DNA of 64,000 bases, taken from contig NZ_CP009576.1 of assembly GCF_000763495.1 (NCBI RefSeq), forward strand, positions 2,366,001 through 2,430,000, read 5' to 3'. Source of the stretch: Listeria ivanovii subsp. londoniensis. GTDB lineage: Bacteria; Bacillota; Bacilli; Lactobacillales; Listeriaceae. Of this stretch, positions 47,597-59,510 are shown piece by piece (within the stretch, counting starts at the first letter, position 1; each line of letters starts with the position of its first letter). The notes beneath the pieces are model-generated. The model saw only the letters and a program-made list of their open reading frames with translations, had not been told where the DNA came from and made no database searches. The position numbers and the translations under genes were made by a program.

Positions 47597-47668
47597 GGCC
47601 CGTTGGTCAAGCGGTTAAGACACCGCCCTTTCACGGCGGTAACACGGGTTCGATTCCCGTACGGGTCA
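47597..47668 (+). tRNA. tRNA-Glu (UUC)
   Basis: A complete cloverleaf of 72 bases: acceptor GGCCCGT/ACGGGTC, anticodon stem ACCGCC/GGCGGT with loop CTTTCAC, T arm ACGGG-TTCGATT-CCCGT. The anticodon is UUC. The CCA end is not encoded. Confidence 0.96.
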
Positions 47669-47823
47669 CTTTTAACATTAATTCATCCGTTAAAAAAATA
47701 AATTTATTTTTTTGAAAAAAAAGCTGGTAAAAATAGTGAAAATGTTATATTATGTATTAGTATCTGTTTCGAATAATTAATTTGCAAGAGATTTCGATTT
47801 GCCAGCAGTGAGAGCGATTCTTC

Positions 47824-47897
47824 GCCGACTTAGCTCAATCTGGTAGAGCAACTGAATCGTAATCAGTAGGTTGCGGGTTCAATTCCTGCAGTCGGCA
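47824..47897 (+). tRNA. tRNA-Thr (CGU)
   Basis: A 74-base cloverleaf with acceptor GCCGACT/AGTCGGC and anticodon stem ACTGA/TCAGT with loop ATCGTAA, reading CGU for ACG codons. No CCA is encoded. It stands 155 bases after tRNA-Glu, farther than the other spacers. Confidence 0.95.
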
Positions 47898-47907
47898 TTT
47901 TTATAGC

Positions 47908-47991
47908 GGAGGGGTAGCGAAGTGGCTAAACGCGGCGGACTGTAAATCCGCTCCTTCGGGTTCGGTGGTTCGAATCCACTCCCCTCCACCA
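47908..47991 (+). tRNA. tRNA-Tyr (GUA)
   Basis: Acceptor GGAGGGG/CCCCTCC, anticodon loop CTGTAAA (GUA), and the long variable arm expected of bacterial tRNA-Tyr (CTCCTTCGGGTTCGG region). The CCA end is encoded. Confidence 0.97.
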
Positions 47992-48005
47992 TTTATTTCT
48001 ATTAT

Positions 48006-48077
48006 TGGGCTATAGCCAAGCGGTAAGGCAACGGATTTTGATTCCGTCATGCGCTGGTTCGAATCCAGCTAGCCCAG
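48006..48077 (+). tRNA. tRNA-Gln (UUG)
   Basis: Acceptor TGGGCTA/TAGCCCA, anticodon stem ACGGA/TCCGT with loop TTTTGAT, giving UUG. The U1-A72 pair is typical of tRNA-Gln. No CCA is encoded. Confidence 0.96.
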
Positions 48078-48086
48078 TCATATTTA

Positions 48087-48159
48087 GAGCCGTTAGCTCA
48101 GTTGGTAGAGCATCTGACTTTTAATCAGAGGGTCGCTGGTTCGAACCCAGCACGGCTCA
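48087..48159 (+). tRNA. tRNA-Lys (UUU)
   Basis: Acceptor GAGCCGT/ACGGCTC, anticodon stem TCTGA/TCAGA with loop CTTTTAA, giving UUU. Last of the five-tRNA operon; no CCA encoded. Confidence 0.97.
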
Positions 48160-57785: not shown

Positions 57786-58259
57786 ATGCAAATTAGATTA
57801 TCCGTTCGTGAAGATGCATCATCCATGATGGAACTTGAACATTTAGTTTGGACACCTGGCACAACTCCTGGAAATATACATTTTGACAGCGAGGCAGAAT
57901 TCTTACTCAAAAACCCCCCGGGATCCAAAATAGTTGTCGTTAAAGAGGATAAAGTAATTGGGATTCTTGGATATAAATCGCCCATCCCTCTTCCGTCCAA
58001 TAAACATGTAGTAGAACTTGATATTGCCGTACATCCTGACTACCAACGGGAAGGTATTGGTCAGCTACTAATGGATAAAATGAAAGAAATAGCTCGTGAA
58101 AAAGGATATCTCAAAATCTCTTTACGCGTTTTATCTATCAATCAAAAAGCCATTCGTTTTTATGAAAAAAATGGTTTTAAACAAGAGGGATTACTAAAAA
58201 AAGAATTTATTATTAATGGGAATTTTGTAGATGATATTTTAATGGCTTATTTCCTCTAA
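57786..58259 (+). CDS. GNAT-family N-acetyltransferase
   Basis: A 157-residue acetyltransferase with the acetyl-CoA loop YQREGIGQLLMDKM (about residues 91-104) and AIRFYEKNGFKQEGLLKKEF, the pattern of spermidine or peptide acetyltransferases. The ribosome site is weak (AAAGTTGG). It starts 16 bases after the permease gene and may be co-transcribed. Substrate unknown. Confidence 0.88.
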   Translation: MQIRLSVREDASSMMELEHLVWTPGTTPGNIHFDSEAEFLLKNPPGSKIVVVKEDKVIGILGYKSPIPLPSNKHVVELDIAVHPDYQREGIGQLLMDKMKEIAREKGYLKISLRVLSINQKAIRFYEKNGFKQEGLLKKEFIINGNFVDDILMAYFL

Positions 58260-58310: not shown

Positions 58311-58347
58311 ATAAAGCGTTTACATTTTTTGATAACGGTTATATATA
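58311..58347 (+). promoter_or_regulatory. Promoter with overlapping cre-like site
   Basis: TTTACA (58319-58324) and TATATA (58342-58347) are separated by 17 bases. ATAAAGCGTTTACAT (58311-58325) read on the other strand is ATGTAAACGCTTTAT, which matches the degenerate CcpA consensus at all but one position and covers the -35. It drives the structured RNA candidate downstream. Confidence 0.7.
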
Positions 58348-58376
58348 GAGTACAACAAACAAAAAAGGTGATGCGA

Positions 58377-58403
58377 ATGACAAAAACTTGGTGTACAAGC
58401 TGA
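58377..58403 (+). CDS. Leader-like 8-codon ORF (MTKTWCTS)
   Basis: Near the 5' end of the predicted transcript, AAAAAAGGTG lies 6 bases before an ATG that opens an 8-codon frame with adjacent Trp and Cys codons. The stop TGA lies in the left arm of the AAGCTGA/TCAGCTT hairpin, whose loop is T-rich. A competing small hairpin, CTTG/CAAG, would place the T run as a weak terminator. Size and layout resemble attenuation leaders, but translation is not shown. Confidence 0.4.
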   Translation: MTKTWCTS

Positions 58404-58825
58404 TTTTTTTCTCAGCTTTGTCATATGCCGGCAAAACGTCTGGTGAAGGATTTTAGTGTCAAGCAGCTAAAGTTAGCTTACAGGAGGAAGGCGAGGAGTA
58501 TACGCCGCGTCAAGAACTTAACTAACTTAGTTGTAGGAAGACGGACTTTCGTTACGTCGCCCATTTATCAATATTTTTTTAAGCCTCACTAAATTGGTAA
58601 ATAAGCGAATAAAGTATCGTATCATTAATGGCCACTATTTGAACAAGTTACGGGCGCTCATTTATTCGTAAGTGGAATATCTTGAGGAGTAAAGGTTAGA
58701 TAAAATTGGCCTACTTGTTCGAAAATGCCTCACCGTTTTCCGAATGTTGTATGTTTATTCAGAAACATCCAGACATGGTCCGGCCATCAGATGAGTGGCA
58801 AGACAAGCTCATCCGAAAAGAAAAA

Positions 58826-58860
58826 CCCCGTGTGACGAAAGTTATCACACGGGGTTTTTT
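58826..58860. terminator. Strong terminator of the structured RNA / GntR-like gene
   Basis: CCCCGTGTGA (58826-58835) pairs perfectly with TCACACGGGG (58845-58854) and six T residues follow. The A run to its left and the minus-strand stop at 58863 let it work in both directions. Confidence 0.93.
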
Positions 58861-58862
58861 GA

Positions 58863-59510
58863 TTAAGAAAATAAAATGGAAATGTTTTTATCATAAAATT
58901 TTTGAATAACAAGATGGCACTCTTCAAACTCTCTCGCTTCTAAATGATCAACTAATTCTTCTAATGCCTTGGTAATATCCATGATAAAAGCATCAAAAAA
59001 CAACTTCTCATTCTTCACTTTCATTTTTTGCAAAAGTTTCGTAAGTGTATCAATGTTCTTCTCCATAGCAGGCATTTCTGTATAGTGAATCATACAAGTA
59101 TAAAAATTTTTGACATGCTCAATGAACACATCTGTATTTTGATCAGCAACAGCTAATTTAATATATACTAATTCTTTTCGAAGACAAGTCGCACATACTT
59201 CCGCATCTTGATCTTGTAATTTTTGAACCGCGTAGTTCAAATGAAAAAATGCTAACTTCAGACGTGATTTCTCACGATGTTCCGCCTCATTTTTGATAGC
59301 TACCGAAAAACTTTTTCCACCGTTATTTTCGCATAACATGCCACTCTTATGTAGACAATGGAGCGCACCAAAAGCTACTCGTTTGCTTACTTGAAATCGT
59401 TTCATAATGTCATCAATATCCACTTCTTCACCATTTTCCAAAGTGTTAGTCATTATTTCATTCTTGATTTCTCCGTATATCGGATCTGCAACAAATCCAC
59501 TTTTTTCCAT
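58863..59510 (-). CDS. GntR-like transcriptional regulator
   Basis: A 215-residue protein: a winged-helix start (IYGEIKNEIMTNTL, then VDIDDIMKRFQVSKRVAFGAL) of GntR type at about 10-70, followed by an all-helical domain resembling FadR/FCD effector domains but without the usual metal histidines that I can align. Two cysteines lie in VCATCLRK. AAAGAGG is about 8 bases before the ATG. It may control the downstream EIIC-like gene on the same strand, which is encoded 184 bases upstream, or the adjacent RNA; neither is shown. Confidence 0.78.
   Translation of the reverse strand: MEKSGFVADPIYGEIKNEIMTNTLENGEEVDIDDIMKRFQVSKRVAFGALHCLHKSGMLCENNGGKSFSVAIKNEAEHREKSRLKLAFFHLNYAVQKLQDQDAEVCATCLRKELVYIKLAVADQNTDVFIEHVKNFYTCMIHYTEMPAMEKNIDTLTKLLQKMKVKNEKLFFDAFIMDITKALEELVDHLEAREFEECHLVIQKFYDKNISILFS

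Follow-up and report, generated by a model that had tools for sequence, protein, structure and literature searches.

The structured block downstream of a GNAT gene in Listeria ivanovii subsp. londoniensis is an ordinary copy of Rli47 (SbrE), orthologous to the catalogued stress-induced regulatory RNA of Listeria and nothing new in kind. What looks new is the extent of the family. Judged from sequence comparison, homologs of Rli47 occur in all 34 Listeria genomes searched, which contradicts the published absence of the RNA from Listeria sensu lato. Two of its helices, P4 and P1, covary across these homologs.

The window analyzed is a stretch of 64,000 nucleotides (contig positions 2366001-2430000; whole genome, 3,045,035 bases). 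Within it, cmscan matched positions 58340-58843 of the forward strand to Rfam RF01478 (rli47/SbrE) at 524.2 bits (gathering score, 200), over model positions 1-508 of 508 (Table 1). A preliminary description, made from the letters of the sequence, had allowed for either a new or an already listed RNA, and it is the second branch that is right. Seven further Rfam lines on the block, each under its own cut-off and all around the terminator, were rejected. In keeping with a size of about 500 nt, the window copy extends from 58340 to about 58860 and ends in an intrinsic terminator of 15 pairs. The terminator that the preliminary description had seen in the block is real (mean pair probability 0.98); our terminator scan missed it, probably because the scan allows loops of at most 8 bases and the loop here has 9. 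The same description saw no convincing gene in the block, and we agree. A 55-codon ORF (58425-58592) has no Pfam match and crosses an A run that differs by one base in length between close species, and the reading of the block as protein-coding was rejected on these grounds. The block also lies, as described, between a GNAT gene and a convergent GntR-like gene, the GntR match being weak, and these flanks match those of the other sensu stricto loci. With the flanks included, the copy closest to that in the window is L014 (96.4% identity), followed by L012 (92.6%), the L. immobilis copy L015 (91.5%), and the remaining sensu stricto copies (87.2-88.9%). Elsewhere in the window, five tRNA genes are clustered on the + strand (47597-48159).

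Table 1. Coordinates, in window positions, of the Rli47 RNA, its promoter and structural elements, and the flanking genes.
Feature	Position	Strand	Detail
GNAT gene, upstream of block	57786-58259	+	Pfam Acetyltransf_1, E 8.1e-21
cre-like sequence over SigB -35	58311-58324	+	2 mismatches
SigB-type promoter GTTT-N15-GGTTAT	58318-58342	+	GTTT 58318-58321, 15 bases, GGTTAT 58337-58342
Rli47 (SbrE) RNA	58340-58843	+	RF01478 model; transcript expected to ~58860
Putative 8-codon ORF (M...WCTS) after AAAAAGGTGATGCGA	58377-58403	+	in 15/15 sensu stricto copies
Helix P1	58397-58418	+	58397-58402 with 58413-58418; pair probability 0.83
Long-range helix P2 (weak)	58427-58784	+	58427-58431 with 58780-58784; pair probability 0.009 in window
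Strand 58438-58445, alternative partners	58438-58791	+	58769-58774 (P3) or 58784-58791 (preferred by Rfam)
GAGGAAG and stem-loop B	58484-58510	+	GGCG 58490-58493 with CGCC 58503-58506; probability 0.35
Long-range helix P4	58536-58741	+	58536-58544 with 58733-58741; pair probability 0.94
Stem-loop C	58563-58602	+	58563-58572 with 58593-58602; loop CCUCAC 58584-58589
3' hairpin GATGAG/CTCATC (weak)	58790-58813	+	pair probability 0.04 in window
Intrinsic terminator	58821-58859	+	15 pairs, 58821-58835 with 58845-58859; 9-base loop; T-run
Weakly GntR-like gene, convergent	58863-59510	-	PF00392, E 0.0015, 18.6 bits, under Pfam's 27

Rli47 (SbrE) has been described as an RNA of about 514 nt, encoded between lmo2141 and lmo2142, that has a SigB promoter and depends on SigB, its level being 186-fold higher in the parent strain than in a strain without SigB (PMC2813243). 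When L. monocytogenes was co-cultured on plates for 72 hours, 50-90% of its reads came from this RNA (PMC7377500). In L. monocytogenes, its CU-rich third stem-loop is reported to bind the Shine-Dalgarno region of ilvA (PMC12596718, PMC8079631), and its deletion phenotypes are weak (PMC3565269, PMC12596718). One of these texts points out, citing Marinho 2019, that Listeria sensu lato notably lacks rli47, and uses the absence from environmental Listeria to suggest a host role for the RNA (PMC12596718).

Within the window's genus, RF01478 matched 24 of 25 genomes, and 15 of these scored above the cut-off; in the family it matched 32 of 36, and among 14 control genomes none. All 19 copies outside sensu stricto miss the gathering score, 17 of them at 29.8-125.9 bits and two (G009 and G035) without any match; similarly, a cmscan of nine loci outside sensu stricto returned none at the cut-off. 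The sub-cut-off matches in the window's genus present their motifs in the same order as Rli47. In the g3 group (nine genomes of 3.2-3.5 Mb), the RNA sits between GNAT and PTS_EIIC_2 genes, and in G009 and G035 it occupies the same GNAT/PTS place even though RF01478 missed it there. In neither of the two genomes of the sister genus g2, which we take to be Brochothrix, is the GNAT gene next to the PTS gene. A different arrangement is seen in L016-L024, where the PTS gene is retained downstream of the RNA and no GNAT gene was found within the fetched upstream flank (L018 has a GNAT copy elsewhere); in five of these nine loci, the five inspected by eye, an ORF resembling a substrate-binding lipoprotein lies upstream. 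The first motif list did not fit the g3 matches, but a reading of these matches as chance was rejected, as sequence and synteny support them.

One exact core motif was found in 12 stretches of named genomes, all of them Listeria: L. farberi, L. marthii, L. cossartiae, and L. immobilis within sensu stricto, and L. goaensis, L. ilorinensis, L. valentina, L. fleischmannii, L. aquatica, L. kieliensis, L. costaricensis, and L. floridensis outside it. Among viral contigs, no stretch contained this motif. R1, which models the 5' core from 17 rows over 105 positions, finds 34 of 34 Listeria genomes, 17 of which lie outside the model, and neither of the two g2 genomes. Across 359 other genomes of the order, R1 gave one borderline match (E 0.0097), in a search that covered a sample of the order under stricter filters that lose weak matches; a second R1 match in G011 (E 0.0062) was taken as noise. 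Homology outside sensu stricto rests on synteny, motif order, helices P1 and P4, and model R1. In the literature searched, including PMC12596718, PMC7377500, and PMC7677406, there are no reports of Rli47 homologs outside sensu stricto.

Helix arms were hand-picked from the 34 copies, and each helix was compared with 2000 shuffles. P4 is paired in 104 of 104 cells over 13 distinct arm pairs from 34 species, seven of its eight columns have changed on both sides, and no shuffle did as well (0/2000); its arms in L016, L017, and L019-L024 exclude bases of bulges and internal loops. P1 is paired in 36 of 36 cells over six distinct arm pairs, with three of six columns changed on both sides and 10 of the 2000 shuffles as good. 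P2, P3, and stem-loop B are not distinguished from shuffles. P2 occurs as GCCGG:CCGGC versus GUCGG:CCGAC in four g3 species, with one of five columns changed on both sides (338/2000 shuffles as good). P3 pairs in 34 of 34 copies, yet 996 of the 2000 shuffles equal it and its pair probability in the window is 0.009. The stem of stem-loop B, which is GGC:GCC, GGC:GUC, or GAC:GUC in the 34 copies, is uninformative (1313/2000 shuffles as good). Stem-loop C is paired in every one of its 26 copies and no shuffle equals it (0/2000), a result that proves little because the g3 arms were picked for complementarity. The sequence of the 3' hairpin is nearly invariant in the 13 rows of alignment A2. The RNA does not stand out by its folding energy (z -1.7 for 58342-58815). 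Near stem-loop B, positions 58482-58492 carry the Shine-Dalgarno-like sequence AGGAGGAAGG, within which GAGGAAG is invariant in 17 of 17 rows of alignment A3. All 15 sensu stricto copies share a second CCUCAC (58728-58733), just before the 3' strand of P4, which the 19 other copies lack.

Two strands of the RNA have more than one candidate partner. The partner that Rfam prefers for the P3 strand, 58784-58791, can form 8 of 8 pairs in the g1 and G009 copies inspected and 6 of 8 in three g3 copies inspected. When g3 was folded alone (eight of nine sequences, L039 being left out), the fold contained P1, P2, P3, and stem-loops B and C, with CCUCAC in the loop of the latter, and the 5' strand of P4 (the counterpart of 58536-58544) was paired locally, at a quality similar to that of its long-range partner. 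Alternative partners of the P4 5' strand and the P3 strand may represent a switch, or only uncertainty in the predicted folds.

The promoter of the window copy reads as SigB type. The pattern GTTT-N15/16-GGN(A/T)A is present in 34 of 34 homologs, and its GTTT-N15/16-GG portion fits the SigB consensus. The preliminary description had proposed a CcpA-type promoter, 17-spaced and with a cre-like site at the -35. Its 17-spaced promoter was not borne out: the promoter scan found no sigma-70-type site on the + strand of the block at its threshold, and the conserved element is the SigB pattern. The cre-like site survives in part, in that a match with two mismatches does lie at the -35 and the same sequence stands at the Rli47 promoter in 19 of the 34 homologs, including all 15 of sensu stricto. 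Such matches, however, occur in the window at chance level (85 with at most two mismatches versus 82.1 expected from shuffles, a second one lying at 58330-58343), and the conservation of this one is partly explained by its position on the SigB -35. CcpA as the main control of Rli47 is not supported by these comparisons, given that all 34 homologs have the SigB elements but only 19 the cre-like sequence, and given the SigB dependence reported in PMC2813243. CcpA may still have an additional effect.

The key observation of the preliminary description was a long-range helix of 58430-58449 with 58728-58741, and a CcpA-controlled RNA built on this helix is, in our estimate, extremely improbable. 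Its bases are able to pair (14 of 14 pairs possible in the window), and this complementarity stands. Their mean pair probability, however, is 0.007, whereas P4, in which this 3' strand also takes part, reaches 0.94, and forcing the helix costs 5.7 kcal/mol. The strands barely vary among the 15 copies of sensu stricto, and 204 of 210 pairs are standard there; in the 19 other copies the figure is 175 of 266 (strands placed by motif). As a conserved helix it was rejected, being lost outside sensu stricto while the 3' strand is compensated with 58536-58544, that is, in P4. The identical cre-like sequence over the -35 would suit the CcpA model, but it is missing in 15 of the 34 homologs, lies on the SigB -35, and belongs to a class of matches found at chance frequency.

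Of the 34 species, 26 carry the loop CCUCAC/U, namely all 15 of sensu stricto, all nine of g3, and L016 and L017, and eight lack it; the 19 copies outside sensu stricto thus divide into 11 with the loop and 8 without. In the window, CCUCACUA pairs with UAGUGAGG in the Shine-Dalgarno region of ilvA (8 pairs, -13.0 kcal/mol). Among 57 start regions this duplex ranks first, though narrowly, none of the 56 others in the window being as good and the next reaching -12.6 kcal/mol. Rli47 of the L001 type, in contrast, forms 13 pairs with ilvA (-21.1 kcal/mol), and the pairing was not predicted for L. ivanovii in PMC12596718. Because the window match has only 8 pairs and was not predicted there, control of ilvA should be weaker in this species.

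Of the family's 36 genomes, 33 contain ilvA above the TIGR02079 cut-off. In the remaining three, G001, G014, and G023 (L. aquatica, L. kieliensis, and L. valentina), the best matches lie at E 4.8e-22 to 2.2e-21; these genomes are 89% (G001) and 99% (the other two) complete. In G028, G032, and G033 the TIGR02079 match falls in two pieces, as if ilvA were frameshifted in those assemblies. The 31 Listeria that possess ilvA comprise 21 with both the loop and GUGAGG, 5 with the loop and a changed site (L004, L016, L017, L040, and L042), and 5 with neither (Fisher P 0.0015, descent ignored). The RNAs of L. valentina, L. aquatica, and L. kieliensis (L022, L023, and L024), which have no ilvA above the cut-off, contain no CCUCAC and keep the SigB promoter, core, and terminator, with R1 matches of 4.6e-20 to 5.6e-19, as good as elsewhere. 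Five species that do have ilvA likewise possess the core and no loop. On a tree of the PTS protein that covers 28 of the 34 species (the gene is outside the fetched flank in the other six, and 7 of 27 inner branches are starred), the loop needs at least two changes.

A short reading frame may lie in the 5' part of the RNA region. In L001-L024, a ribosome-binding site and a start codon stand at one place; L016-L024 have their start codon at the position of the putative 8-codon sensu stricto ORF, followed by other short peptides. Outside g3, these 5' peptides have 8 to 20 residues and are unlike between groups. In the nine g3 genomes (L037-L045), a 39-codon ORF begins straight after the SigB promoter, and its peptide aligns gap-free from residue 1 with the N-terminus of Listeria CsbD (L092 and L094; 0/1000 shuffles). 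It scores 70-71 against the G009 CsbD and 58 against the CsbD that the window's genome encodes, but it matches L093, the CsbD of a g3 genome itself, only weakly (23 and 28 of 1000 shuffles). Pfam CsbD (PF05532) was not found in three g3 peptides, which matched no family at E up to 10, so that the similarity is pairwise only. The ORF has a GTG start in three of nine genomes, is frameshifted in L042, and has a pN/pS of 0.55-0.63; a motif search of G009 found no CsbD-like 5' ORF. The g3 frame is possibly a relic or a small peptide, and its coding is putative. CsbD is the protein also named YwmG. In PMC2813243, lmo2158, named YwmG-like, stands high on the SigB list.

For this Listeria of the sensu stricto group, we consider it quite probable that Rli47 is a SigB-transcribed, terminator-ended antisense RNA on ilvA that also carries a conserved core with a second, older function. 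The SigB promoter would drive Rli47 in stress and stationary phase, giving a transcript of about 500 nt that would end at the intrinsic terminator. The CCUCAC loop of stem-loop C would then pair in trans with GUGAGG in the ilvA ribosome-binding site, and this pairing would lower threonine deaminase and slow isoleucine-limited growth; repression of ilvA, reported for L. monocytogenes, is suggested for the window's species by the 8-pair match. The loop would sit on a conserved core made of P1, P4, the stem-loop B motif, and a conserved 3' segment, and this core would most likely bind other mRNAs or a protein in general stress. We infer the second, older function of this core because promoter and core outlive the loop and ilvA in three species.

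For the genus as a whole, we give about even chances to an interpretation in which Rli47, rather than being peculiar to the host-associated species of sensu stricto, is a genus-wide SigB RNA whose ancient core acts beyond ilvA repression. The ilvA loop would then be an older add-on, lost at least two times together with its site, and the promoter and core would have outlived ilvA in three species. One branch has a CsbD-like start, so the RNA may derive from an mRNA for a small general-stress protein, or may be such an mRNA even now. Alternatively, Rli47 could be a regulator of ilvA only, with the core as a stabilizing scaffold and the copies without loop or ilvA as decaying relics or RNAs with a late substitute target. 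We regard this as unlikely. It would agree with ilvA being the one experimentally shown target in the literature searched, and with loop and ilvA site going together in 26 of the 31 ilvA species (21 with both, 5 with neither), but it is at odds with the three species that keep promoter and core without ilvA above cut-off, at R1 values no worse than elsewhere, and with the five ilvA species that carry the core without the loop.

The 5' reading frames raise another alternative, decidedly improbable in our assessment, that Rli47 serves as mRNA for a small stress peptide and continues into a long structured 3' region, or that it has a dual function. The short, dissimilar peptides outside g3 speak against it, as do, within g3, the GTG starts, the frameshift in L042, the pN/pS values, the empty Pfam result, and the weak match to g3's own CsbD, together with the missing ORF of G009. 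In its favor, the co-located ribosome-binding site and start codon of L001-L024 and the nine 39-codon g3 frames, CsbD-like from their first residue, would be expected of such an mRNA.

If Rli47 is indeed genus-wide and kept without ilvA, the host role suggested for it loses its basis, and efforts to find its main function can begin with a defined core and with species naturally without loop or target. The comparison around the window matters in that Rli47 can be the most abundant L. monocytogenes transcript on plates (PMC7377500), and the effects of its deletion are weak.

Compared with known systems, the window copy resembles Rli47/SbrE (RF01478) in its full-length match, SigB-type promoter, terminator, and CU-rich loop matching the ilvA start region; the difference lies in the relatives outside sensu stricto, which fall under the Rfam cut-off or, in two genomes having one, are missed. 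RsaE/RoxS are Firmicutes sRNAs with CU-rich loops that bind Shine-Dalgarno regions. Rli47 is like them in its unpaired C/U-rich loop covering a ribosome-binding site, but it is much longer and not a member, without an Rfam match at cut-off: the RsaE line reached 24.8 bits (cut-off 79), on the opposite strand and over the Rli47 terminator. Finally, OLE, ROOL, and GOLLD are large ornate bacterial RNAs. The window RNA differs from them in that it has no Rfam match to any of the three and that convincing Rli47 relatives are confined to Listeria among the genomes searched, and it resembles them in its length of several hundred nucleotides, a core with long-range pairing, variable arms, and very high abundance.
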